NCBI GenBank assembly: GCA_024763365.1
Contig: JANTFO010000003.1
Coordinates: 1-51,665, forward strand
Source of the DNA: Flavobacteriaceae bacterium
GTDB lineage: Bacteria > Bacteroidota > Bacteroidia > Flavobacteriales > Flavobacteriaceae
DNA length: 51,665 nt
Direction: 5' to 3'
Shown: one piece after another, positions 24,082 through 48,387 of the stretch
How the letters are laid out: the number at the start of each line of letters is the position of its first letter
How positions within the stretch are numbered: the first letter of the stretch is position 1
Made by a program: the position numbers and the translations under genes
Notes under the pieces: model-generated
What the model was told of the DNA's origin: nothing
What the model saw: only the letters and a program-made list of their open reading frames with translations
Database searches by the model: none

Positions 24082-25032
24082 CTACCCATTTTTGATCATG
24101 ATTATTTTTGCTGCGATGCTTACCGCAATTTCTGCAGGTGTTTTACTATGGATATCAATACCTATTGGGGCATCTGCTTTTTGAAGTAGGTTTTTATCAC
24201 AGCCATTTTCAAGCATTTTTTTAAACATGGCTTTAATTTTAGCTTTGCTGCCTAAAAGCCCAATATATTTATAATCTTTATCTAATAATTTACTGAATAT
24301 CAAACTATCTGTTTCAAAAGCATGGGTAAGGATTACGATATAAGTATTGTCATTTGAGGGTATATGTTGGTCTATTTCCTTATAGTCAATAATTCTTTTA
24401 GTAGCGGAAAAACTATTGGCTTCAAAGGTGTTGAGGTTTGCTCTTTCGTCAAACATAGTCACTTCAAAGTCTAGGGTGTCTAGAAGTTTGGCAGTGGCTA
24501 GACCCACATGCCCACCACCTATCAGATATACATAAGATTTACGGTTTACTTTTTCTCGGTATACCCAGCGAAGGCTGTCGGTTTGCTTGAAGCTAATGTC
24601 TTTGTCCGGTGATGAAATTTTTTCTAAGTCAAACTTATCCTCGGATATGGAGAGTATAGCATTGTTGTCTTTGATTATCCTTTTTAGGGTAGGGATATGT
24701 TTTGAAAGCATAGGGTAAAACAGGACAAGTTGTTCCCCTGCACAGATCATTCCGGAGCTATCACTGTCATTTTCTCTATGTACCTGCTTCCTAAAGAAGG
24801 CTTTAAAAGGCTTTTCTTTGAGTAAATTTTTGGCTTCTTCTACCAGATTAAACTCAGTACGCCCGCCTCCAATAGATCCGTATAAAGTTCCATCTTCGGC
24901 AACAATCATTTTAAATCCTTGCTTACCGGGTGAACTTCCATGGTGAGTTACTACCAGTAGTAAGATCACTTTTTGTCCTCGCTCAAGATGTGTTACTATA
25001 TTTTTCCAGATTTCCATAAAAATGGGACTCAA
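24082..25032 (-). CDS. xdhC: XdhC-family Moco insertion/maturation protein
   Basis: VTHHGSSPGKQGFKMIV, GSIGGGRTEF, VYLIGGGHVGLATAKLLDTLDFEVTMFDERAN. Confidence 0.9.
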   Translation of the reverse strand: MSPIFMEIWKNIVTHLERGQKVILLLVVTHHGSSPGKQGFKMIVAEDGTLYGSIGGGRTEFNLVEEAKNLLKEKPFKAFFRKQVHRENDSDSSGMICAGEQLVLFYPMLSKHIPTLKRIIKDNNAILSISEDKFDLEKISSPDKDISFKQTDSLRWVYREKVNRKSYVYLIGGGHVGLATAKLLDTLDFEVTMFDERANLNTFEANSFSATKRIIDYKEIDQHIPSNDNTYIVILTHAFETDSLIFSKLLDKDYKYIGLLGSKAKIKAMFKKMLENGCDKNLLQKADAPIGIDIHSKTPAEIAVSIAAKIIMIKNG

Positions 25033-25036
25033 ATAT

Positions 25037-27307
25037 TTAAGAGTAGTTTTCGTATAAGCCCATTAAGACTTTTTCCGGTGTCATAGGTGCATCAAATGCT
25101 AAGCTGTAGTTAGGATTGAAAGCAGTAATGGCATTTTGTATGGCAAAATAAGTACCTATACCATACATAAGTGGTGGTTCCCCAACGGCCTTTGACTTTA
25201 AAATTGCCATATCAACTCCTTTTGTTTCAAGGGCTTCTACTTTAATTTCTTTAGGTACGGAAAAAATATCCGGGACTTTGTAACCTGATAATGAATTTGA
25301 CAATAGCCTACCTTGTTCATCATAAGATATTTCCTCCATGGTCATCCAGCCTATACCTTGTACTAAGCCTCCTTCTACCTGTCCCATATCGATACCTTTG
25401 TTCATGGATTTACCAAAATCATGGACGATCTCTACGGAATCAATTTCATAAGTTCCCCGAATACAATCTACAGTCACAGTAGTCAATGCTGTACCATACA
25501 CATGATAAGCAAACGGATGTCCTTTTTCTATAGCTTTGTCAAAATGAATTTTTGGTGTAGCATAATGCGCATGCTCTGAAAGGCTGATCCGTTTTATAAA
25601 TGCCGATTTGATCAAGTCTTCCCATGCCAAAGAAGTTCGTTTTCCGTTAACTAAAACAAAATTGTTCTGAAAATTAATGTCATCTGACCCATTTATGGGT
25701 AGTTTTTCTGCAACTACTTTTATCAATCTTTCTTTAATTTGGTTACATGCTTTAAGCAATGCTTTTCCGTTAAGATCTGCGGTTGCACTGGCAGCTGAGG
25801 GCGACATATTCGCTATTCTCGTTGTATTAGTGGTTTCAATTTTAACTTTACTTTCGTTTAAACCAAAGAATTGAGCAGCTATTTGAAGCATTTTAGTATT
25901 GACACTTTGTCCCATTTCAACAGCTCCGGTACTAACTCCAATACTACCATCATGATAAACGTGTATCAAGGCTCTAGCATGATTCATAGGGGTATTGGTA
26001 AAGGATATACCAAATGTGATCGGCATTAGTGAAATACCTTTTTTGTAGTTTTGGTTTTTACTATTAAATAAGGTTAATTCCTTTTCTTTCTTTGCTAAAT
26101 CATAGGTTTCTTTTACTTGATGCCAGGTGTTGGAAATTTCAACCTGTTTGGCTATCTGACCATAAGGAAATTCATCATTTTCTTGTAGTAAGTTGGCTTC
26201 TTGTATTTTTCTAACGGGGATATTTAACTCTTTAGCGGCCTTTGCTATGGCAGCTTCTATTACAAACATACCCTGAGGGCCTCCAAATCCTCTAAAAGCG
26301 GTATTTGGTGGCAGGTTTGTTTTGCAAGAGTACACGGTAAATTTAGCACTCTTGACATAGTAACTATTGGTCGCATGAAACAAAGTGCGTTCAGCAATAG
26401 CCGGTGATAAATCAGCAGCAGCTCCCGAATTTTGATAAAAATCTACTTCATAGGCTTTAATCTTTAGGTTTTTATCCAAACCAATTTTAAAGCTGGATTC
26501 ATAAGGATGACGTTTACCGGTCATACGCATATCGTCATGGCGTTCTAAAACCATTTTAACAGGCTTGTTTAAAATCTGCGCTGCTAATGCTGTCATCACG
26601 GCCCAAGGTGTAGCCTGATCTTCTTTCCCACCAAAAGCCCCACCCAGACGGTTTACCTCGACTTCTATTTTATGCATTGGAATATTAAGAACTCTAGCCG
26701 CGGTAGCTTGAACTGAAGTAGGCCCTTGTGTAGATGAAAATATTTTTAGATTTCCGTTTTCTAGGGGTATTGTATAAGAAGCTTGTGTCTCCAAATATAG
26801 ATGTTCCTGTCCGTTTGTAAAGGTTTCTCCTGTAAAAATATACACACTTTCTTCAAAACCTTTTGAGGTGTCATTTAATGTAAATGTCCTGGGAGCATTG
26901 ATAAACGAAGCCTTTTCAAAGGCTTCTTTTGTAGAAGTTACTGCAGGCATTTCCTCCAGGTCAATTTTGATCAGTTGCCTGGCTTTTTTGGCAATGGCCA
27001 AGGTTTCAGCTATGATAAGCGCAATAGGTTGCCCCATAAAGTGTACTTCATTTTCTGCGAATAAAGTTTCATCAGGAATGATGCCTCCTATTTGATTTTT
27101 ACCGGGAATGTCTTTGTAATCAAGTATTTTGATGACTCCTTTAACACTTTTAGCTTCGGTATAATCTATCTTTTTGATGATGCCGTGAGCAATAGGTGCA
27201 TCAAAAACCAGGGCATGTAGAGTGCCTTCTCGGAGGTTTATATCGTCTACAAAAATAGACTCACCTCGTACATGGCCAATCGAATCTTTATTTTTCATAC
27301 TACTCAT
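25037..27307 (-). CDS. xdhB: Xanthine dehydrogenase molybdopterin-binding subunit
   Basis: GQEHLYLETQ, GGAFGGKEDQATPWA, TAFRGFGGPQGMFVIE, SKAVGEPPLMYGIG. Confidence 0.93.
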   Translation of the reverse strand: MSSMKNKDSIGHVRGESIFVDDINLREGTLHALVFDAPIAHGIIKKIDYTEAKSVKGVIKILDYKDIPGKNQIGGIIPDETLFAENEVHFMGQPIALIIAETLAIAKKARQLIKIDLEEMPAVTSTKEAFEKASFINAPRTFTLNDTSKGFEESVYIFTGETFTNGQEHLYLETQASYTIPLENGNLKIFSSTQGPTSVQATAARVLNIPMHKIEVEVNRLGGAFGGKEDQATPWAVMTALAAQILNKPVKMVLERHDDMRMTGKRHPYESSFKIGLDKNLKIKAYEVDFYQNSGAAADLSPAIAERTLFHATNSYYVKSAKFTVYSCKTNLPPNTAFRGFGGPQGMFVIEAAIAKAAKELNIPVRKIQEANLLQENDEFPYGQIAKQVEISNTWHQVKETYDLAKKEKELTLFNSKNQNYKKGISLMPITFGISFTNTPMNHARALIHVYHDGSIGVSTGAVEMGQSVNTKMLQIAAQFFGLNESKVKIETTNTTRIANMSPSAASATADLNGKALLKACNQIKERLIKVVAEKLPINGSDDINFQNNFVLVNGKRTSLAWEDLIKSAFIKRISLSEHAHYATPKIHFDKAIEKGHPFAYHVYGTALTTVTVDCIRGTYEIDSVEIVHDFGKSMNKGIDMGQVEGGLVQGIGWMTMEEISYDEQGRLLSNSLSGYKVPDIFSVPKEIKVEALETKGVDMAILKSKAVGEPPLMYGIGTYFAIQNAITAFNPNYSLAFDAPMTPEKVLMGLYENYS

Positions 27308-28707
27308 GCTACTAGATCTTTGAGTTTGAATAAATTCGGAAATAGTTTTAGGAAGTGGGCATAGAACAATTGTCTGGCTAGCAATCTTTTATAAGTCTCC
27401 GTGCCTCTTACATCACTAATGGGTGAAATTTCCTTTTGCATGATATCCTGTGCTGCTATGATGGTGGATACAGTTAACTTTTTTCCTTTGAGATAGGTAT
27501 TGGTTTGGTTTAAATACTTTGGAATAGCAGCCACACCACCCACCGCAATATGCGTTTCTTTAATTATATTATCGTTGAGCTTGATATTTAGGGCAGTATT
27601 TACGGAGGCAATGTCTAAATGCGTGCGCTTACTTACTTTTTCAAAATTGAAGTAGGTGTTTTGATCGGGTATTTCGAATGAAATGTGCTGTATAAACTCA
27701 TGATCTTGCAGATCCATTTTTTTGTAATCCAAAAAGAAGTCTTTGAGTAGGATCTCTCTGATAGCTCCAATCGAACTTTGTATGTATAAGCTGCTATTTA
27801 ATGCTAAAAAGAAAATGCTCATATCCCCGATAGGCGAGGCATTGACAAAATTACCACCTATACTGGCCATATTCCTGATAGGCTCTGATGATACTAATTT
27901 TAAATGGCTCTTTACATAAGGAAAATACCGGGCAAATTCACAATTCTCCATCAAATTAGTCACATTGACGCCAGCTCCTATTTTACATTTTGTGTTAGAA
28001 AAAAGGATTTTATCAGGGACAAAATCAGAGGCTTTTTGGATCTCTTGATCGAGAAGGGCATCAGCATGTTTTACATATAGATCAGTTCCACCGGACACCA
28101 ATACACCTTCAGTAAATGATTGTTCATTCTTTATTTCCCTAAGTCTGGCAGGTATATCTGTAAAATAGTCAGGTATAAATTTGTTTTTAACTAACCAATT
28201 CAGCGAGTCATGATGATTTTTTTTCTGAAGTTTTTCAGTAACTTCTTTGGCTGCTTTTTCAATGGATTTATATCCTGTACAACGACAGATATTGCCACTG
28301 AGGGCATTGAGACTGTCAGTGTAAGTGACAGGTTTTTCCCTTAAACTTAACCCCGTTAATGAAATTACAAAACCAGGAGTACAATATCCACACTGCGTTG
28401 CGAAATTATTATGCATGCTTTGTTGTGCAATGTTGAGTTTGTTTGTAAGATTTATACCTTCAACCGTTACGATATGCTTACCATGTGCGTTAGCCAAAGG
28501 GGTTAAACAGGAAGTAAGGCTAACATAGTGAAGCTTATTGTCCTTATGTAAGCTTCCTGATAAAACAGTGCAAGCACCACAATCACCTTCTTTGCATCCC
28601 GCTTTTGTACCTTTTAAACCTTGTTCCTCTCTGATAAAATGTAACAAACTCATGCCTGATTTGGCTTCTGTTTGCACTTTTTTATCATTTAGAATAAATT
28701 CAATCAT
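27304..28707 (-). CDS. xdhA: Xanthine dehydrogenase small subunit (2x[2Fe-2S] + FAD domains)
   Basis: GTKAGCKEGDCGACTV, TQCGYCTPGFVISL, GNICRCTGYKSIEKA, EPIRNMASIGGNFVNASPIGD; 4-nt overlap with xdhB. Confidence 0.93.
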   Translation of the reverse strand: MIEFILNDKKVQTEAKSGMSLLHFIREEQGLKGTKAGCKEGDCGACTVLSGSLHKDNKLHYVSLTSCLTPLANAHGKHIVTVEGINLTNKLNIAQQSMHNNFATQCGYCTPGFVISLTGLSLREKPVTYTDSLNALSGNICRCTGYKSIEKAAKEVTEKLQKKNHHDSLNWLVKNKFIPDYFTDIPARLREIKNEQSFTEGVLVSGGTDLYVKHADALLDQEIQKASDFVPDKILFSNTKCKIGAGVNVTNLMENCEFARYFPYVKSHLKLVSSEPIRNMASIGGNFVNASPIGDMSIFFLALNSSLYIQSSIGAIREILLKDFFLDYKKMDLQDHEFIQHISFEIPDQNTYFNFEKVSKRTHLDIASVNTALNIKLNDNIIKETHIAVGGVAAIPKYLNQTNTYLKGKKLTVSTIIAAQDIMQKEISPISDVRGTETYKRLLARQLFYAHFLKLFPNLFKLKDLVA

Positions 28708-36925: not shown

Positions 36926-37180
36926 TTAGGTATCTAAATCCAAATCGTCCAATTCATCCATTTGCATCAAAATATCCATCGTCTTTTTGGCTTCTTCTTC
37001 ATCTACAATGCTGATGGCACTACCAACATGAACCAATACATAATCTCCAATCTTTGCTTCAGAAAGCATGGCCAGATTCACTTCTTTAATAATACCGTTA
37101 AAGTCTACTTTAGCAAAACGGAATACCTCGTCAATTTGATTGTCAATGGAAATAATTTTTCCCGGGATGGCTAAACACAT
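36926..37180 (-). CDS. hypC: Hydrogenase maturation chaperone HypC
   Basis: MCLAIPGKIISI; VNLAMLSEAKIGDYVLVHVGSAISIVDEEEA. Confidence 0.95.
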   Translation of the reverse strand: MCLAIPGKIISIDNQIDEVFRFAKVDFNGIIKEVNLAMLSEAKIGDYVLVHVGSAISIVDEEEAKKTMDILMQMDELDDLDLDT

Positions 37181-37251: not shown

Positions 37252-38052
37252 CTACTGACGATTGCTTACTGTTTTAAGCCACTTATACCAATCATTCATG
37301 CCCTCACCTTTGGTAGCAGATACTTCAAAAAACTCCAACTTAGGATTTACCCTGCGAGCATATTCTTTACATTTTTCGATATCAAAATCTACATAGGGGA
37401 GTAGGTCTGTCTTATTGATAATACATACTTGCGAACCGGCAAACATATCCGGATATTTGATAGGTTTATCCTCACCCTCAGTAACACTGATAATCACAAT
37501 TCGCTTATTTTCTCCCAAATCAAAAAGTGAAGGGCAAACAAGATTACCCACATTTTCTATCATCAGGATACTATTGTCATTAGGTGCTAATTTTTTAACG
37601 GCCGAGTATACCATATCACTTTCCAAATGACAGCCTTGTCCAGTATTTACCTGAACGACAGGCACTTTAAGTGCATCTATCCTATTGGCATCATTAAGCG
37701 TTTGCTGGTCTCCTTCAATCACGTAGAAATCCATTTCACTTTTGAGGTCAGCTAAAGTTTTCTCCAGAAAGGAAGTTTTACCCGATCCGGGAGAACTCAC
37801 CAAATTGAGTGTAAAAATATTTTTAGCTTCAAAATAACCACGATTACGGGCAGCTTCTACATCATTGAATTGTAAGATATCCTGCTCTAAATGTATATGA
37901 TCATGTGAATGCTCATGGCTATGGTCGTGATGATGATCATGATCGTGCATATGATCGTGGTGATCGTGTCCGTGAAGGTGTGTATGTTCTTTTTCACCCG
38001 GGCTTTGTATGGTGACTTCATTGTCATTACCACATCCGCAAGTTCCGCACAT
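37252..38052 (-). CDS. hypB: Hydrogenase nickel-incorporation GTPase HypB with N-terminal His-rich nickel-storage region
   Basis: MCGTCGCGND; His-rich tract; GTPase motifs SSPGSGKTSFLEKT, IENVGNLVCPS, INKTDLLPY. Confidence 0.96.
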   Translation of the reverse strand: MCGTCGCGNDNEVTIQSPGEKEHTHLHGHDHHDHMHDHDHHHDHSHEHSHDHIHLEQDILQFNDVEAARNRGYFEAKNIFTLNLVSSPGSGKTSFLEKTLADLKSEMDFYVIEGDQQTLNDANRIDALKVPVVQVNTGQGCHLESDMVYSAVKKLAPNDNSILMIENVGNLVCPSLFDLGENKRIVIISVTEGEDKPIKYPDMFAGSQVCIINKTDLLPYVDFDIEKCKEYARRVNPKLEFFEVSATKGEGMNDWYKWLKTVSNRQ

Positions 38053-38181: not shown

Positions 38182-38616
38182 TTATTCAAAAATATTCTTG
38201 ATGTTTTTTAAAAGATGAGCCAAATTTTCTTTTGCTTTTTCCGTCATGCCAATAGCTAATTCAAAAGAATAACCGGATATACTCACGTTGTAACATTTTG
38301 GATAAGCATGATATATGGTTTGGCAAAGGCTTACAATACTTTCGGCACTCAATTCATGAGAGGTATAACTACCTTGGTCTATAGCCTTGGTTTTTTCAAA
38401 ATGGTAACCTTGTTCAAAATTCCTGATATCGGCGTCTATAAAATATACTTCTTGGTAATTGGCAATAAGCTCGGCATCTTCTACTTGTAGCTGATAGCGA
38501 TATTCTATATCATAATCATATTCGATGGATGGAGGCAATTGATCTAAAAAAGCCCAACCCAGACCGTCGTCTTGCCTGCCTTCATTGCCAATGCCGATAA
38601 GTAATTTTTTTTTCAT
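38182..38616 (-). CDS. [NiFe]-hydrogenase maturation protease (M52) for HoxH
   Basis: LLIGIGNEGRQDDGLGWAFLD, IDADI; next to hoxH. Confidence 0.87.
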   Translation of the reverse strand: MKKKLLIGIGNEGRQDDGLGWAFLDQLPPSIEYDYDIEYRYQLQVEDAELIANYQEVYFIDADIRNFEQGYHFEKTKAIDQGSYTSHELSAESIVSLCQTIYHAYPKCYNVSISGYSFELAIGMTEKAKENLAHLLKNIKNIFE

Positions 38617-38712: not shown

Positions 38713-40167
38713 CTATTCTTTATACTTTCTGTCTATGACTATACCTTGATTATCAACAATAGAAACTTCTAAGGGCATTTGTCCCATAGCGTGCGTAGCA
38801 CAACTCAAGCAAGGGTCATAAGCACGTATAGCTATTTCAACCTGATTGAGCATACCTTCTGTGATCTTTGCTTTGCCACTGATTTCATTTTGGGCTACCC
38901 ATTTTACTGCTTGATTCATCGGTTCATTATTATGGGTAGTTGAAACGATCAAATTACAGCGGGTGATACGATCTTTATCATCTACTTCATAATGATGAAT
39001 TAAAGTGCCACGAGGAGCTTCTATTACACCGACACCTTCTTTTCTACGTTCTCCTTTTCTGATAAGGTCCTTACTTAATATGTCATCATCATTGAGTAGA
39101 TGTTTCATCTCTTCGGCAGCATACAATATCTCTATCAATCTTGCCCAATGTGAATACATGGTCATATTATTTGTTTTACCACCAGTCATTTCCATAAATT
39201 CTTTACGCTCTTTTTCGGCCAAAGGTGTCGCAATTCCGTCACAAACATTGATACGGGCTAACGGACCTACACGGTTCCAACCTTTTTCTTTCCCGATGTG
39301 TTTTAGGTATGGGAATTTGAGGTAAGTCCATTTCTCTGTAGATTCATAGAAATAGTCATTGTAATCTTCACTTTCAATATCATTAAGTGTGATATTTCCC
39401 TGAGCATCAGTGGCTCTTAAATAACCATCATATAATTCCAGGAAGCCGGTTTCTTTGTTTACTAACCCCAAATGTCCCGATGGATAAGAGGCAAAGGTAT
39501 CTAAAAATACCCGATGTTGTTGGTGGTATTTTTTGATGAAATCTATGATCTCAACAGACCATTCGATCATAGTATCTACATTGGGCATATTTTTGCCATC
39601 CAAAAAGAATTGTCTTTCTTTATCTTCTACAGTTTTGTGAACACCTCCCGGAATTGTGGCAATGCCATGGATTTTCTTGCCTGCAACCATTTTGATGATC
39701 TCTTGACCGAACTTTCGCATCAAGATTCCTTTTTTAGCCAATTCAGGATAGGCTGTAGCTACACCCACTACATTTCTTTTTTCAGGTGCTGCATCCGCAC
39801 CAAATAAAAGATCGGGGGAAGCCAGGTAAAAGAAATGTAAAGCATGAGATTGAAATACTTGCCCAAAGTGGAGTAATTTTCTCAATTTTTGAGCAGGGAT
39901 TGACAAATCTTTTGGGTCTATCCCTACAATCTGGTCAATAGCTTTAGCTGCAGCCAAATGATGGCTTACCGGACAAATGCCACATAATCGTTGCACCATA
40001 ACAGGTGCTTCCCAGTAAGGGTGTCCTTGAATAAATCGTTCAAATCCTCTAAACTCCACTATGTGAAATTTAGCGTCGGTTACTTTATTGTTGTCGTCCA
40101 CTTGTATGGTTACTTTTCCATGTCCTTCTACTCGGGTAACCGGATCTATGACTATTTTTTGACTCAT
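38713..40167 (-). CDS. hoxH: Group-3-type [NiFe]-hydrogenase large subunit HoxH
   Basis: RVEGHGKVTIQVDD, RLCGICPVSHHLA, AYDPCLSCATHAMGQMPLEVSIVDNQG. Confidence 0.95.
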   Translation of the reverse strand: MSQKIVIDPVTRVEGHGKVTIQVDDNNKVTDAKFHIVEFRGFERFIQGHPYWEAPVMVQRLCGICPVSHHLAAAKAIDQIVGIDPKDLSIPAQKLRKLLHFGQVFQSHALHFFYLASPDLLFGADAAPEKRNVVGVATAYPELAKKGILMRKFGQEIIKMVAGKKIHGIATIPGGVHKTVEDKERQFFLDGKNMPNVDTMIEWSVEIIDFIKKYHQQHRVFLDTFASYPSGHLGLVNKETGFLELYDGYLRATDAQGNITLNDIESEDYNDYFYESTEKWTYLKFPYLKHIGKEKGWNRVGPLARINVCDGIATPLAEKERKEFMEMTGGKTNNMTMYSHWARLIEILYAAEEMKHLLNDDDILSKDLIRKGERRKEGVGVIEAPRGTLIHHYEVDDKDRITRCNLIVSTTHNNEPMNQAVKWVAQNEISGKAKITEGMLNQVEIAIRAYDPCLSCATHAMGQMPLEVSIVDNQGIVIDRKYKE

Positions 40168-40213: not shown

Positions 40214-41482
40214 TTAATCATATTTAAATTCATTATATGAAATAGGAATTTCTTCACCTAATAAAATGCTTTTTACGACTTTCCAGATATGTTGTGCATT
40301 AGGGGGACATCCTGGGATATAGTAATCTATATCAACCACTTCATTACAGGGATATACTTTGTCTAATAGTTTTGGTATATCTTCGGAATGAGGAATGATA
40401 TCTGCACCCAATTCACTAGTGTGTCCATTTAGATAAGATTCTTCCAAACATTCTTGCAAGGGGACAAAATTCCTCATTGCAGGAATACCACCCATAATGG
40501 CGCACTCTCCAAAACTAACCAGAATATCACAGTTTTCACGAAATTTTCTGAGTACATGTACGTTTTCTGAATTGGCACAACCACCTTCAATGAGGCCTAT
40601 ATGACAGCGTTTTGAAAAATTCTTGATATCTGTTAATGGGGACTTGTTGAATTCTACAATCTCTACCATGTCTAATAAATCTGTGTCAATATCGAGTAAT
40701 GACATGTGACAACCAAAACAGCCTGCCAAAGAAGTAGTACCTACGACAAATTTTTCTCCGTCTTTGAGTTTGATCTGTTCGTGTTTCAGTTTGGTTTGAA
40801 CTTGTTGGTTAAGAAAATCGTATTTGCGTTCACCAAAAGGTTTTTCGTTGGCAATTCCTTTCACTAAGATTGCACCTACCGGACAAATCTCCATGGCGTG
40901 TAAAGCTTCCTCATCTGAAAGTTTACTTTCTTCTTTATAATCAATCTGTATGCGGGTTTGTACGCCACGTTTTACAAAAGAAAAGACACTTTTGCCGTCT
41001 TTGGTTTTTATCTCCTCTACACATCGTTTACACAAAATACATCTGTTAGATTCCATGATCATACGATGTGGTGTAAAATCTACCGCTTTGTGTGTAAATG
41101 CGTGTGGATACCGGGTTACCGTCAATCCCATATTATATGCGTGATTCTGTAGCTCACAATCCCCACTTTTTTCACAACTTGGACAGAAATGATTGCCTTC
41201 TGCATAAAGCATTTCTACAATGGCAGCACGATTGTCCAATAGTTCGGGTGTATTGATCTCAACTTCCATGCCTTCTTGGACTGTCGCTGTACAGCCGGTG
41301 GTATGTCTGCCATTTATCTTTACAGTACAAATGCGACAAGTACCCAATGTCGGATGAATTTCTTTAAAATAGCAAAGTGTGGGAATGACAATTCCAAAAT
41401 CTTTAGCTACATCAACCAAATTTCTTCCGGTTTCAGACTGGTATTTATTACCATCTATGATTATATCTACTTTTTTATTCAT
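40214..41482 (-). CDS. HoxU-HoxY fusion: diaphorase FeS subunit fused to hydrogenase small subunit
   Basis: N-part: GTCRICTVKINGRHTTGC, EGNHFCPSCEKSGDC, RCILCKRC...CPVGAI; C-part: TSLAGCFGCHMSLLDID, SKRCHIGLIEGG, FRENCDILVSFGECAIMGGIPAMRN, DYYIPGCPPNAQHIWK; start MNKKVDIIIDG at 41482. Confidence 0.93.
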   Translation of the reverse strand: MNKKVDIIIDGNKYQSETGRNLVDVAKDFGIVIPTLCYFKEIHPTLGTCRICTVKINGRHTTGCTATVQEGMEVEINTPELLDNRAAIVEMLYAEGNHFCPSCEKSGDCELQNHAYNMGLTVTRYPHAFTHKAVDFTPHRMIMESNRCILCKRCVEEIKTKDGKSVFSFVKRGVQTRIQIDYKEESKLSDEEALHAMEICPVGAILVKGIANEKPFGERKYDFLNQQVQTKLKHEQIKLKDGEKFVVGTTSLAGCFGCHMSLLDIDTDLLDMVEIVEFNKSPLTDIKNFSKRCHIGLIEGGCANSENVHVLRKFRENCDILVSFGECAIMGGIPAMRNFVPLQECLEESYLNGHTSELGADIIPHSEDIPKLLDKVYPCNEVVDIDYYIPGCPPNAQHIWKVVKSILLGEEIPISYNEFKYD

Positions 41483-43223
41483 AATCAGTAGTGATTTCTT
41501 TAATAATATGTTCATATTCCGAGACAGATTTTTCAAGATTAAACTTATTGCCTAAATCAGAATCATCTGTCATATATTTTCTAAAAGCTTCAGGAAACTT
41601 TTTGATAGCGTCGTTTAATGAGTTTGAGGACATTTGTCCCAAACCACAACGGCTGGTCGTTTGAATGATCTTACTCCACTCTTTAACGTCGTTCATATCT
41701 TTATGTGTGGCTTTCCCAGAAATCATCTTATCGATTTTTTTATTGAGCAAGAAATTACCGGTTCTACAAGGCACACAAATACCACAGGATTCTGAAACGA
41801 AGAAGTCAGAAAAATGCTTGAGGATTTGAAAAATGTCTCTACTTTCATCAAATACCATTACAGAGCCCCCGCAGATTAGGTCCTCTCCAGAAATATTTCT
41901 ATCAAAATCTTCTTCGGCTAGTGCATTACCGGACGGCCCGCTCCATTGAATCATCTTAGGCTCTTTTGCTCCAATTAGTTTTAAGAATTCTCTAAAATTC
42001 ATGCCCCATTCAATTTCGTAAATACCAGGATTTTTACAGTCGCCTGATACACTGAGTACTTTGGTGCCGGGTGTTTTTTCTGTGCCAATCTTTAACCAAT
42101 TGTCAACACCCATTTCTACAATACGGGTTACTGCACATAGTGTTTCTACATTATTAACTACAGTAGGTTTTCCTTTAAATCCACTCTGAACAGGATATAC
42201 TACTTTGGTACTGGGCTCACCACGGAATCCTTCTGCCGAATGTATGAGTGCTGTTTCTTCACCACATACATAGGCACCTGCACCTAATTCAATATAGATG
42301 TCAAAATTTAAAGGCTCCTTTGCAGGAATATTATTTCCTAAGAAGTTATAAGTCTTGTATGACTCAATCAAATCCTCTAGCGCTTCTTTTAAATAGCGAT
42401 ATTCACCTCTCAGGTAGATAATACCTTGTGATGCGCCAATGGCATAAGCAGCCAGAATCATCCCTTCAATAAGTAACTCCGGATGAGTTTGTAAAAGTAC
42501 ACGGTCTTTAAAAGTGCCGGGTTCTCCCTCATCGGCATTACAGATCAGGTATTTTATATCTGCTTTGTTTTGTCGGGCAAATTGCCATTTTAAACCAGTG
42601 GGGAAGAAGGCGCCCCCCATACCAGAAAGCTTGGATTTTTTGATTATTTCCAAAATTTCTTCCGGTTTATGTTCTCTGATGTAATTTAGTACAGAAAATT
42701 TATTGTACGATTTAAAGAAAACTGTTTTTTCCGGTGGTGGGGTGTAATGTATTTTACTATTGGGTTTATCACATATTTCGCTGGGTTTAGCTCCATTCCT
42801 CAATTGGTGAATAATGTCTCTTGCTTTCTCAGGGGTAAGGTTTGTAAAGGGTTTAAAATTAATCAAACAAGCAGGTTCTTGATCACTTAGGCCAATACAT
42901 GCTGTTTCGTATAATCCAAACAATCCGTCAAATGACAAATGCCCTAAGGGCACACCGATTTCCTTTTCAAAGGCTTCTCGGATTTTGTCCATACCTGCAT
43001 GTTCTGAAGTAATGGAATTGTTTAGGTAAATAGTGTATTTCCCACAGTCCTGACGATGAAAAAAATGATAAAAAGTAAGCACTCCCTCTACTTCCATTCT
43101 GGAAAGTTCAAACTCTTTGGCAATTTTGGTAATATCGTCGTGTGCAATGTGTCTTTTTTTTCTTTGTATTTCCCATAATACAGAGAGTAATTTGCTACGA
43201 TCTATTTTTTTCTTTGTTGCCAT
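41475..43223 (-). CDS. hoxF: HoxF-type NAD(H)/FMN diaphorase subunit with N-terminal HoxE/NuoE-like domain
   Basis: N-terminal VEGVLTFYHFF...CIGLSDQEPACLI; FPTGLKW, CNADEGEPGTFKDR, GAYVCGEETALIHSAEG, SCGICVPCRTG. Confidence 0.94.
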   Translation of the reverse strand: MATKKKIDRSKLLSVLWEIQRKKRHIAHDDITKIAKEFELSRMEVEGVLTFYHFFHRQDCGKYTIYLNNSITSEHAGMDKIREAFEKEIGVPLGHLSFDGLFGLYETACIGLSDQEPACLINFKPFTNLTPEKARDIIHQLRNGAKPSEICDKPNSKIHYTPPPEKTVFFKSYNKFSVLNYIREHKPEEILEIIKKSKLSGMGGAFFPTGLKWQFARQNKADIKYLICNADEGEPGTFKDRVLLQTHPELLIEGMILAAYAIGASQGIIYLRGEYRYLKEALEDLIESYKTYNFLGNNIPAKEPLNFDIYIELGAGAYVCGEETALIHSAEGFRGEPSTKVVYPVQSGFKGKPTVVNNVETLCAVTRIVEMGVDNWLKIGTEKTPGTKVLSVSGDCKNPGIYEIEWGMNFREFLKLIGAKEPKMIQWSGPSGNALAEEDFDRNISGEDLICGGSVMVFDESRDIFQILKHFSDFFVSESCGICVPCRTGNFLLNKKIDKMISGKATHKDMNDVKEWSKIIQTTSRCGLGQMSSNSLNDAIKKFPEAFRKYMTDDSDLGNKFNLEKSVSEYEHIIKEITTDYE

Positions 43224-43401: not shown

Positions 43402-43743
43402 TTAATAAGTATCTAAACTTTTAACACGGAGTTCTTTTCCTTTTGTGATATTTTTCAAAAAACTTCCGCATTTGGGACATGAATCATGGATGTGATTAAT
43501 CATAAAATGATGCTCACAATCTCCACAAATTGCTTCAGCTTGAATTTTATGAATACGTTTTTCTGCATTTTTTAAAACTGTATTGTCAGTAGCCACTTCC
43601 CATGCAAAGTCTAAAGCTTCAAATTCAATTCCGGATAATGTGCCAATTTCAAGATCAATGGCTTTAAATTGATCAACACCAGCTTTTTTGGCTTCAGCTT
43701 CAGCAATTTTTATGATACCCATGACAATTGACATTTCGTGCAT
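43402..43743 (-). CDS. hypA: Hydrogenase nickel-insertion protein HypA
   Basis: MHEMSIVMGIIKIAEAEAKKAG; zinc site CGDCEHHF...CPKCGS. Confidence 0.95.
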   Translation of the reverse strand: MHEMSIVMGIIKIAEAEAKKAGVDQFKAIDLEIGTLSGIEFEALDFAWEVATDNTVLKNAEKRIHKIQAEAICGDCEHHFMINHIHDSCPKCGSFLKNITKGKELRVKSLDTY

Positions 43744-44006: not shown

Positions 44007-45137
44007 ATGGGAAAATTACAAAAAAACACCAAAAAGACCTACTATGAAGATATTTCTGCAAAGGGATATTCTCGTAGAGATTTCGTGAAGTTTGCCACCT
44101 ATATGACGGCTTTCATGGGATTAGAACACAGTATGGTAGGTCAAGTAGTGAAAGCCATGGAGACCAAAAAACGTCTACCTGTTATTTGGGAACATTTTCA
44201 AGAATGTACAGGGTGCTCCGAGTCTTTCATTCGTTCTGACCACCCGCTAGTCGCTGATGTGGTATTAGACCACATTTCTTTGGATTACACGGATACTTTG
44301 ATGGCTGCAGCAGGCCACAATGCAGAGGAAGCGAAGCATAAATCCATGAAAGAGAATTACGGTAATTATATTTTAGTAGTGGAAGGAGCTATTCCTACTA
44401 AAGATGATGGCGTATACTGTACAATAGCCGGAAGAACTGCAGTGGATATTTTGAAAGAAAGTGCTGCAGGTGCCGCTGCGATCTTAACTTTTGGTAGTTG
44501 CGCAGCATGGGGTGGCGTGCAAGCTGCACATCCCAATCCAACAGGGTCTGTTCCTGTCAGTGATATCATCAAAAACAAACCTATTATTAACATCCCCGGC
44601 TGTCCTCCGATTTCTGAAGTCATGACCGGAGTTGTTTTACATTATTTGACTTTCGGAACACTGCCTGAAGTTGATGATATGGGAAGGCCAAAACAATTTT
44701 ACGGAAAACGTATCCATGATTCTTGTTACAGACGTCCCCATTTTGATGCCGGACAATTTGCAGAATCTTACGATAGTGAAGAGGCCAAAAAAGGATATTG
44801 CTTATACAAATTAGGTTGTAGAGGACCTGTATCATACAATGCCTGTAGTACTACCGGATGGAATAATGGCGTTAGTTTCCCAATTCAATCAGGATATCCT
44901 TGTATAGGATGTAGTGAACCTGATTTTTGGGATAATGGGCCATTTGTTAAGAGGCTTACTAATATACCTGAATTAGGTATTGAAGCTACAGCAGACGATA
45001 TTGGTAAAGTGGTGCTTGGTGCCACAGTAGCAGGAGCTGCCGTTCATGCAGTTGCTACCAATATAGCTAAACGTAGAGAATTGAAAGATACCTCGAAGCA
45101 TGGAAAATCAAATTTAGAACACCTTAAAGAAGAATAA
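44007..45137 (+). CDS. hyaA: Group-1-type [NiFe]-hydrogenase small subunit with Tat signal
   Basis: YSRRDFVKFATYMTAFMG; ECTGCSESFIR, GSCAAWGGVQAAHPNPTG, IPGCPP; C-terminal hydrophobic segment. Confidence 0.95.
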   Translation: MGKLQKNTKKTYYEDISAKGYSRRDFVKFATYMTAFMGLEHSMVGQVVKAMETKKRLPVIWEHFQECTGCSESFIRSDHPLVADVVLDHISLDYTDTLMAAAGHNAEEAKHKSMKENYGNYILVVEGAIPTKDDGVYCTIAGRTAVDILKESAAGAAAILTFGSCAAWGGVQAAHPNPTGSVPVSDIIKNKPIINIPGCPPISEVMTGVVLHYLTFGTLPEVDDMGRPKQFYGKRIHDSCYRRPHFDAGQFAESYDSEEAKKGYCLYKLGCRGPVSYNACSTTGWNNGVSFPIQSGYPCIGCSEPDFWDNGPFVKRLTNIPELGIEATADDIGKVVLGATVAGAAVHAVATNIAKRRELKDTSKHGKSNLEHLKEE

Positions 45138-45139
45138 TT

Positions 45140-46879
45140 ATGGCAAATAGAATAGTAGTAGATCCAATTACAAGGATAGAAGGACATTTACGTATAGAAG
45201 CCGAAATCAAAGACGGTAAAATTGTAGATGCCTATAGTTCCTCAACCATGGTTCGAGGATTAGAAAAGATCGTACAAGGAAGAGACCCGCGTGATGTTTG
45301 GGCATTTGTGCAACGTGCATGTGGTGTTTGTACAACAGTACATGCCATTGCTTCTATACGTTCAGTTGAAAGTGCCTTAGGTATTAATATTCCTAAAAAT
45401 GCAGAATTGGTTAGAAATATTGTGACAATTACACAGTCTATCCAAGACCACGTGATTCATTTCTATCACTTACATGCTTTAGATTGGGTAGATGTGACTC
45501 AAGTGTTAAATGCTGATCCAAAAGCTACTTCAGAACTAGCACAAAGTATTTCTAAATGGCCTAAGTCTTCAGTTGGATATTTTACGGATGTAAAAAACCG
45601 AATTAAAAAATTTGTTGAAAGTGGGCAATTAGGAATTTTTGCTAATGGTTATTGGGGACATCCGGCCATGAAACTACCTGCAGAGGTGAATTTATTGGCT
45701 GTAGCTCACTATTTGGAAGCTCTAGAATGGCAAAAAGAAGTTATCAAAATCCATACTATATTAGGTGGTAAAAACCCGCATCCGCATTTCTTGGTAGGTG
45801 GTTCTGCTGCCGCGATGAATTTAGAGGATGCCGGTAGCTTGAATATGGAGCGTTTGGCTTATGTGGGCCAATTGTTGAAAGATGCACACCGCTTTGTTAA
45901 TGAAGTGTATGTGCCTGATCTGTTGGCTATTGCATCTTTCTATAAAGATTGGGGTGCTATCGGAGAGTCTAAATTTAAAAACTATTTGGCTTATGGTGAC
46001 CTTCCGACAGATAGTATTAACAATCCGGAATCTTTCAAATGGCCACGTGGTATTATCTTAGATGGTGATTTGAGTAAAGTTCATCCTGTTGACCTCGATA
46101 ATGCCAGTGAAATTAAAGAGTTTATCAATAAATCATGGTACGATTATCAAGCCGGTAATGGGGAAGGTCTACATCCTTATGATGGGGAAACTAACATTAA
46201 TTATACCGGTCCAAAACCACCTTACGATTATCTGGATGTTGAGAAAAAATACAGTTTTATAAAAACACCTAGATGGCAAGGTAAACCTATGGAAGTAGGG
46301 CCATTGGCTCGTCTACTTATAGGATTTGCTTCAGGTAAAGAAGAATATAAAGAGATCGTCAATTTTGCATTGACTACCTTGGATATTCCGGTAAGTGCTT
46401 TATTCTCAACATTGGGTAGAACTGCCGCACGCGGCTTAGAAACTAAAATGGTGGCCGATTGGGGCTTAGAATTCTACAACGAGTTGTTAGCTAACTTCAA
46501 AAATGGTAATACCAAGATGGCTAATATGGACAAATGGGACCCTAAAACTTGGCCAAAAGAAGCTGCTAAAGGTGTAGGATTTATGGAAGCGCCCAGAGGT
46601 GGCTTAGCACATTGGATTGTGATTGATGAGGAAAAAACCAAAAATTATCAAATGGTAGTTCCATCAACTTGGAATGCATCACCGCGTGATCCAAACAATC
46701 AATTGTCAGCCTATGAGTCTGCATTAATAGGTACTCCTATTGCAGATCCAAATAATCCGGTTGAAATATTGAGAACTATTCACTCCTTTGATCCATGCCT
46801 GGCTTGTGCCGTGCATTTGTATGATGAGGAAGGTAAGAATATAAGTCAGATACAAGTGAATTCTGCTTGTGCTATATAG
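45140..46879 (+). CDS. hyaB: Group-1-type [NiFe]-hydrogenase large subunit
   Basis: DPITRIEGHLRIE, RGLEKIVQGRDPRDVWAFVQRACGVCTTVHA, SFDPCLACAVHLYDEEG plus cleavable tail. Confidence 0.96.
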   Translation: MANRIVVDPITRIEGHLRIEAEIKDGKIVDAYSSSTMVRGLEKIVQGRDPRDVWAFVQRACGVCTTVHAIASIRSVESALGINIPKNAELVRNIVTITQSIQDHVIHFYHLHALDWVDVTQVLNADPKATSELAQSISKWPKSSVGYFTDVKNRIKKFVESGQLGIFANGYWGHPAMKLPAEVNLLAVAHYLEALEWQKEVIKIHTILGGKNPHPHFLVGGSAAAMNLEDAGSLNMERLAYVGQLLKDAHRFVNEVYVPDLLAIASFYKDWGAIGESKFKNYLAYGDLPTDSINNPESFKWPRGIILDGDLSKVHPVDLDNASEIKEFINKSWYDYQAGNGEGLHPYDGETNINYTGPKPPYDYLDVEKKYSFIKTPRWQGKPMEVGPLARLLIGFASGKEEYKEIVNFALTTLDIPVSALFSTLGRTAARGLETKMVADWGLEFYNELLANFKNGNTKMANMDKWDPKTWPKEAAKGVGFMEAPRGGLAHWIVIDEEKTKNYQMVVPSTWNASPRDPNNQLSAYESALIGTPIADPNNPVEILRTIHSFDPCLACAVHLYDEEGKNISQIQVNSACAI

Positions 46880-46943
46880 CTGGTTTTTCATAATCATTAA
46901 ATGATGATCATGGAATTTTTTAATACTTTAATATGATACAAAT

Positions 46944-47669
46944 ATGATTAAAACATATAATTATAAAAGAGTTTATGTTTGGCAGTTACCGGTAAGGTTA
47001 TTCCACTGGGCTACTGTTATATCTATGATAACCCTAATCATTACAGGTTTTATCATAGCGAATCCACCAGCTATAAATCAAAATGTTGAAGCTACAAATT
47101 CCTATTGGTTCGGCATGGTAAGATTGATTCATTTTTCTGCAGCTTTTATCGCGATTGCTGTTGCTTTATTAAGGCTATACTGGATGTTTGCGGGTAATAA
47201 ATTTGCCGATTGGAAGAATTTTATTCCTTATAGCAAAAAAGGTTGGAAAAATATCTTCTATGTCTTAAAAGTGGATGTTTTGTTAAGGCCAGATAAAGAG
47301 CATAAATTATCAAACATAAGCATAGGACACAATCACTTGGCTGCGACCAGTTATTTTGTGATGGCATTTATATTTGTGCTTCAAGCTATGAGCGGCCTGG
47401 CTTTAATGTCTGAAACTTCTGATTTTTGGTTTACCAAAATGTTTGCTTGGGTATTGCCATTCTTTGGTGGAGATATTACCGTACGTTACATACATCACAT
47501 CCTTACTTGGGTATTTATGGCATTTATTGTCATTCACGTGTATTTAGTACTGTATCATGATTATATCGAAGCAAGGGGTGAGACATCAGCCATGTTAAGC
47601 GGCTATAAATTTGTTCGTTCAGAACGTATAATAGATGATGAAGATTATGAACCTGCTGCGAGCAAATAA
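46944..47669 (+). CDS. hyaC: Ni/Fe-hydrogenase b-type cytochrome subunit
   Basis: VYVWQLPVRLFHWATVISMITLIITGF; four TM-like segments with conserved His; IHHILTWVFMAFIVIHVYLV. Confidence 0.93.
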   Translation: MIKTYNYKRVYVWQLPVRLFHWATVISMITLIITGFIIANPPAINQNVEATNSYWFGMVRLIHFSAAFIAIAVALLRLYWMFAGNKFADWKNFIPYSKKGWKNIFYVLKVDVLLRPDKEHKLSNISIGHNHLAATSYFVMAFIFVLQAMSGLALMSETSDFWFTKMFAWVLPFFGGDITVRYIHHILTWVFMAFIVIHVYLVLYHDYIEARGETSAMLSGYKFVRSERIIDDEDYEPAASK

Positions 47670-47850: not shown

Positions 47851-48387
47851 ATGATCTCGGATGAAGTAATCAAATTACAAAAACTTTTTTATCAAACGCA
47901 TGATTATGCTGCAGATGAATATCAGAAACGTATTTTGGTATTAGGAATTGGGAATTATCTGATGGGTGATGAAGGTATTGGAGTACATAGCATTCAAGCA
48001 TTAAGCAAAGAAAAGTTGCCGAAACATGTTGATATCATTGATGGTGGAACGGGCAGCTTTGACTTGATGCCTATTATTGCTAAATACCCCTTAGTTATAT
48101 TTATTGATGCAACTATGGATGGCAAACCTTTAGGCAGCATTGATGTATTATATCCCAAATTTGCTAAAGATTTTCCAAAAGTGCTAAGTGCACATGATGT
48201 AGGTTTAAAAGATATGTTGGATGCATTGGAAATCAAAGGAGAATTACCTAGAATTATTCTTGTAACTGTTACCATTAATGATATGAGGCCTATGACCATT
48301 ACTTTAAGTGATCATGTCCAAGCAGCGGTGCCAAAAGTTGTTGATCAAGTTAAAGAAATAATAAAGGCCATCCAATTAAATAATTAA
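47851..48387 (+). CDS. hyaD: HyaD/HybD-family hydrogenase maturation protease
   Basis: RILVLGIGNYLMGDEGIGVH, IDGGTGSFDLM, SAHDVGLKDML. Confidence 0.92.
   Translation: MISDEVIKLQKLFYQTHDYAADEYQKRILVLGIGNYLMGDEGIGVHSIQALSKEKLPKHVDIIDGGTGSFDLMPIIAKYPLVIFIDATMDGKPLGSIDVLYPKFAKDFPKVLSAHDVGLKDMLDALEIKGELPRIILVTVTINDMRPMTITLSDHVQAAVPKVVDQVKEIIKAIQLNN

Follow-up and report, generated by a model that had tools for sequence, protein, structure and literature searches.

The window analysed here is a stretch of 51,665 nucleotides from a Flavobacteriaceae bacterium (contig JANTFO010000003.1). It carries a hydrogenase operon in the order hypA-hoxF-hoxUY-hoxH-hoxW-hypB-hypC, all on the minus strand, which encodes the modules F, U, Y and H, with U and Y fused. 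The features and the evidence used to assign them are as follows.

43402..43743, minus strand: hypA (TIGR00100)
41475..43223, minus strand: hoxF, a HoxE-like N-terminal domain without cluster ligands followed by the FMN/NAD and [4Fe-4S] part (Pfam, PDB match, Cys positions)
40214..41482, minus strand: fused hoxUY gene, running from the ATG at 41482 to the stop at 40214 and encoding 422 aa (ORF, Pfam, PDB matches)
40817..41482, minus strand: HoxU part, residues 1-222, with ligands C37 C49 C52 C64 ([2Fe-2S]), H98 C100 C103 C109 (His/Cys cluster) and C148 C151 C154 C200 ([4Fe-4S]) (Pfam, PDB matches, ligand positions)
40754..40816, minus strand: linker, residues 223-243, 21 residues (ligand and start-codon inspection, alignment of 60 fusions)
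40217..40753, minus strand: HoxY part, residues 244-422, with proximal cluster ligands C255 C258 C327 C392 (Pfam, PDB matches)
38713..40167, minus strand: hoxH, the NiFe large subunit, which has C62/C65 and C453/C456 and is extended at the C-terminus beyond DPCLSCATH (Pfam, PDB match)
38182..38616, minus strand: hoxW-like hydrogenase maturation protease (TIGR00072)
37252..38052, minus strand: hypB, His-rich at its N-terminus (TIGR00073)
36926..37180, minus strand: hypC (TIGR00074)

The sequence-only reading had described hoxUY as a single uninterrupted ORF that joins a HoxU-like and a HoxY-like half, each with its cluster motifs, and both points are borne out. The minus-strand translation contains no internal stop across its 422 residues, and one chain holds HoxU-type domains together with Oxidored_q6, the architecture that had been proposed as a check: Fer2_4 (3-78), NADH-G_4Fe-4S_3 (85-122), Fer4_Nqo3 (143-205) and Oxidored_q6 (255-404). 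In a search against solved structures, residues 18-224 match chain 5xf9_B (HoxU) and residues 244-422 match 5xf9_C (HoxY). The protein has a complete ligand set for one [2Fe-2S] and three [4Fe-4S] clusters, and the 16 His/Cys ligands, 12 in the HoxU part and the four proximal-cluster cysteines of HoxY, do not vary in any of the 60 fusions aligned. The linker, first placed at about 40751-40816 with a length of ~20 residues, is 21 residues long by our computation. It contains no in-frame ATG, GTG or TTG, so that a separate HoxY is not expected from this gene, and none was seen among the four Oxidored_q6 matches of the genome (assembly ~84% complete), which comprise two hydrogenase-sized small subunits, one NuoB-sized protein and the HoxUY fusion. 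Outside the window, this genome has a hydrogenase-sized small-subunit match within an open frame of 378 aa on a different contig (G000:C112:3630-4067, L153).

The start of hoxUY lies inside the end of hoxF, with an overlap of 8 nt, which suggests translational coupling of the two genes. A divergent group-1-type [NiFe] hydrogenase operon adjoins the hox operon (44007-47669, plus strand; protease at 47851-48387) and consists of a small subunit, a large subunit, a b-type cytochrome and a HyaD/HybD-type protease; it is followed by a hypF-like gene from 49546, inside which the contig ends. The same contig carries a xanthine-dehydrogenase-type gene set at 24082-28707 (minus strand), with a small subunit, a molybdopterin subunit and an XdhC-like gene.

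The best structure matches of the hox products all come from one enzyme, with HoxF matching 5xf9_A, HoxU 5xf9_B, HoxY 5xf9_C and HoxH 5xf9_D (518 bits for HoxH, versus 480 for 7t2r_D and 393 for 5odc_F). HoxH has its N- and C-terminal CxxC pairs, and its C-terminal extension would, as in known enzymes, be cut off by the HoxW-like protease. HoxF carries NADH/FMN-binding and iron-sulfur domains (Complex1_51K and NADH_4Fe-4S in Pfam) and, as had been noted under the name "HoxE-F", a HoxE-like domain, recognised as PF01257. The name itself does not hold, in that the protein is an ordinary HoxF and the cluster ligands of this domain are lost: judged against the NuoE ligand pattern, the first Cys pair is missing and the second is reduced to Cys109. 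A HoxE [2Fe-2S] cluster with four Cys ligands, as in the cyanobacterial-type HoxEFUYH, was thus not found in the HoxF of the window. The cluster of the HoxE-like domain is also absent from HoxF of the Hydrogenophilus thermoluteolus enzyme (PMC8880783).

The product of the operon is very probably a HoxFUYH-type (group 3d) [NiFe] hydrogenase, soluble and NAD-reducing, whose HoxU and HoxY became one polypeptide through a single fusion, so that the two modules are tethered. Separate U and Y chains are usual in group 3d, yet they are not a defining trait. As the sequence-only reading proposed, the enzyme most likely consists of three polypeptides, HoxF, HoxUY and HoxH, coupled to NAD. By homology, electrons are predicted to leave the NiFe site of HoxH by way of the HoxY cluster, to cross the clusters of HoxU and then, in HoxF, the [4Fe-4S] cluster and FMN, and to reduce NAD+; the same route could run in reverse.

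Among enzymes of solved structure, the crystallised HoxFUYH of H. thermoluteolus (PDB 5XF9) matches every structural protein of the hox operon best in sequence, and its HoxF likewise has a HoxE-like domain without a cluster, with no separate HoxE or HoxI (PMC7363133); its HoxU and HoxY, however, are separate chains. Cupriavidus necator H16 HoxFUYHI2 is encoded in the order hoxF-hoxU-hoxY-hoxH-protease, then hypA-hypB, and shares 48% identity over HoxU and HoxY, but there hoxU and hoxY are separate genes that overlap by 4 nt, and HoxI, missing from the operon of the window, is present. The HoxF, HoxU, HoxY and HoxH of the cyanobacterial bidirectional HoxEFUYH are homologous to those of the window, whereas HoxE is separate in that enzyme, as are HoxU and HoxY; for HoxU and HoxY, identity to an Acaryochloris copy is no higher than about 31-35%. 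Bacteroidales, Aminicenantes and Spirochaetes have unfused HoxFUYH enzymes, ~43-64% identical in each domain and with an unchanged gene order, in which a stop codon separates hoxU from hoxY and HoxY has its own start.

The fusion is not peculiar to this genome, as it is common across a large Bacteroidota/Balneolota clade. Of 301 genomes from the family to which the window belongs, 14 (its own included) have a full-length, stop-free fusion (58-100% identity), and one of these has a second fused copy. In genome G049, from the same family, two distinct fusions are 68% and 61% identical to that of the window (G049:C262:5978-7243, L011, and G049:C311:11-1141). No closely similar split hoxU/hoxY pair was found in the 301 genomes, whose other matches have at most 33% identity and mostly lie within long frames sized like other proteins. 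When 396 genomes of the phylum were searched, other families showed further fusions and also split enzymes. In named genomes, 80 loci were picked up by a scan, of which 47 are uninterrupted in frame and 33 are broken by one or two stops where hoxU and hoxY meet; over all searches, after removal of near-copies, we count 61 fused and 51 split loci. The fused loci are labelled Flavobacteriaceae, Chitinophagaceae, Cytophagales, Saprospiraceae, Hymenobacteraceae and Balneolaceae, with two assemblies labelled Chlorobiota and one Acidobacteria; the split loci are mostly from Bacteroidales, Aminicenantes and Spirochaetes. Cultured carriers of the fusion include Lutibacter citreus, L. agarilyticus, Winogradskyella alexanderae, Lutimonas halocynthiae, Ginsengibacter hankyongi, Pontibacter ruber and Botryobacter ruber. 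The order hoxF-hoxUY-hoxH is retained in fused loci with readable flanks. On the Acidobacteria-labelled contig (isolate SZAS-13, L063:6001-7266), the fusion is 71% identical to that of the window and nests among Flavobacteriaceae in the tree; it represents either a horizontal transfer or a mis-assigned assembly.

Because 14 of the 301 family genomes and 47 of the 80 named-genome loci have the uninterrupted frame, chance and sequencing error are excluded and the fusion is real; it also looks functional. The sequence-only reading had allowed that the fusion might already be documented as common in this clade. It is indeed common; in our search, confined to open-licence full text, no paper on a natural HoxU–HoxY fusion was found, and it is possible that a description exists elsewhere. 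The fusion is a modest architectural variant of a well-known enzyme.

When the tree is built from HoxH, the fused operons all group in a single clade (SH-aLRT 97). In a tree of HoxU and HoxY with the linker left out, the fused loci lie on one side of a branch and the labels need one change; that branch has a support of no more than 48, which is due to the long C. necator branch joining at this point. A single fusion event would be the simplest reading of both trees. A stop or an overlap marks the junction in the unfused relatives, which come from Bacteroidales, Aminicenantes, Spirochaetes and Cupriavidus, and in split relatives the hoxU stop usually lies 1-11 codons ahead of the hoxY start. 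Seven Chitinophagaceae-type fusions (L070, L072, L074, L076, L079, L087 and L125) carry an ATG that is in frame, lies 12 codons ahead of GCFGC and coincides exactly with the start position of split HoxY; this ATG may be a relic of a former HoxY start. We propose that the short spacer between hoxU and hoxY turned coding once in the Bacteroidota/Balneolota enzyme lineage and so gave rise to the fusion. The in-frame spacing of split relatives carries no weight in this, since the scan favours in-frame junctions (all split junctions it gave were in frame) and, by their coordinates, the junctions of G827, G917 and G976, unfused genomes from the same class, are out of frame. Taking this spacing as a sign of readthrough was rejected, both for that bias of the scan and because some split relatives, for example L127, L133 and L136, have double stops.

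Constraint is unevenly distributed along the fused chain. Mean pairwise identity over the 60 fusions is 62% in the HoxU part and 71% in the HoxY part versus 13% in the linker, whose length is nevertheless confined to 20-27 aa, with 43 of the 60 fusions having 21 or 22. This pattern fits a tether of free sequence and limited length, although shared ancestry with few indels would give a similar one. An AlphaFold2 model of the fused chain from an 88-row alignment is of moderate quality (mean pLDDT 79.7, pTM 0.71, lower in the linker region) and does not establish the relative placement of the two halves. In Foldseek, the HoxU half matched 5xf9 chains B/F, with a TM-score by target of 0.77-0.79, and the HoxY half gave a separate match to chain C (0.67).

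The covalent diaphorase–hydrogenase interface put forward in the sequence-only reading would follow directly from the fused frame. Such a link would fix HoxU and HoxY at 1:1 and would prevent HoxFU, the diaphorase module, and HoxYH, the hydrogenase module, from separating at the HoxU–HoxY interface. In cyanobacteria, HoxEFU comes away easily from HoxYH (PMC7363133), and a bacterial soluble hydrogenase is suspected to lose some of its integrity during purification (PMC12809855); a covalent HoxU–HoxY link would block dissociation of the HoxEFU/HoxYH type at this interface.

That the tether has no effect of its own has almost an even chance of being true. The same working enzyme would then result from the neutral loss of a stop in an operon whose genes lie close together, and little change would be needed, with hoxU and hoxY a few codons apart in unfused relatives and overlapping by 4 nt in C. 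necator. The poor conservation of the linker sequence (13%) and the homologues with separate subunits in the same phylum are consistent with this, whereas the narrow linker length and the complete lack of reversals among 61 non-redundant fused loci from several families speak against it; neither goes so far as to prove selection, and sequence alone cannot tell selection for a tether from neutrality. Considerably less probable is a stronger proposal, in which the fusion was selected to lock the diaphorase to the hydrogenase, abolishing a diaphorase activity of its own, which may serve cyanobacterial enzymes in the cell, while the internal start in Chitinophagaceae restores some free HoxY to give a mixture of tethered and untethered enzyme.

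We regard as distinctly unlikely that the fused frame yields free HoxY in addition to full-length HoxUY, by internal starts or cleavage. The seven Chitinophagaceae fusions with an ATG at the ancestral HoxY start would permit it and the exposed linker could conceivably be open to cleavage, but the linker of the window offers no in-frame start, and near the HoxY core such a start is missing from most of the other fusions. Still less credible is that the operon encodes a HydABCSL-type, electron-bifurcating enzyme with both ferredoxin and NAD as acceptors, a reading that we rejected on domain content. HoxH and HoxY also match the 7t2r chains well, and in Acetomicrobium mobile HydABCSL (PDB 7T2R) the N-terminal part of HydA and the small and large subunits are homologous to those of the window; that enzyme, however, has extra cluster-bearing domains in HydA, HydB and HydC that are missing from the operon. 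Clusters B2-B5 are unique to bifurcating enzymes (PMC8880783). In Pfam searches, structure matches and Cys positions, neither the additional HydB/HydC cluster domains nor a long HydA was found in HoxF and HoxUY of the window: HoxF has no extra ferredoxin-type domains in Pfam, has lost the HoxE/HydC-type cluster ligands and has its full-length best match in 5xf9_A, other structures matching only from about residue 160-190, and the HoxU part is short compared with the 692-aa HydA. An assembly or sequencing error that erased a stop or frameshift between two ordinary genes, conceivable for a draft of 149 contigs, has a negligible probability and was rejected, as the same open frame recurs in dozens of independent assemblies and several cultured isolates.

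Returning to the tethered HoxFUYH enzyme, the fused forms would be natural versions unable to part at the HoxU–HoxY interface, and their comparison with unfused sisters would test whether the ready dissociation of the modules in cyanobacteria is an artefact or a function (PMC7363133). With one subunit fewer to assemble, they may also help H2-driven cofactor recycling, where subunit loss during purification has been suspected (PMC12809855).
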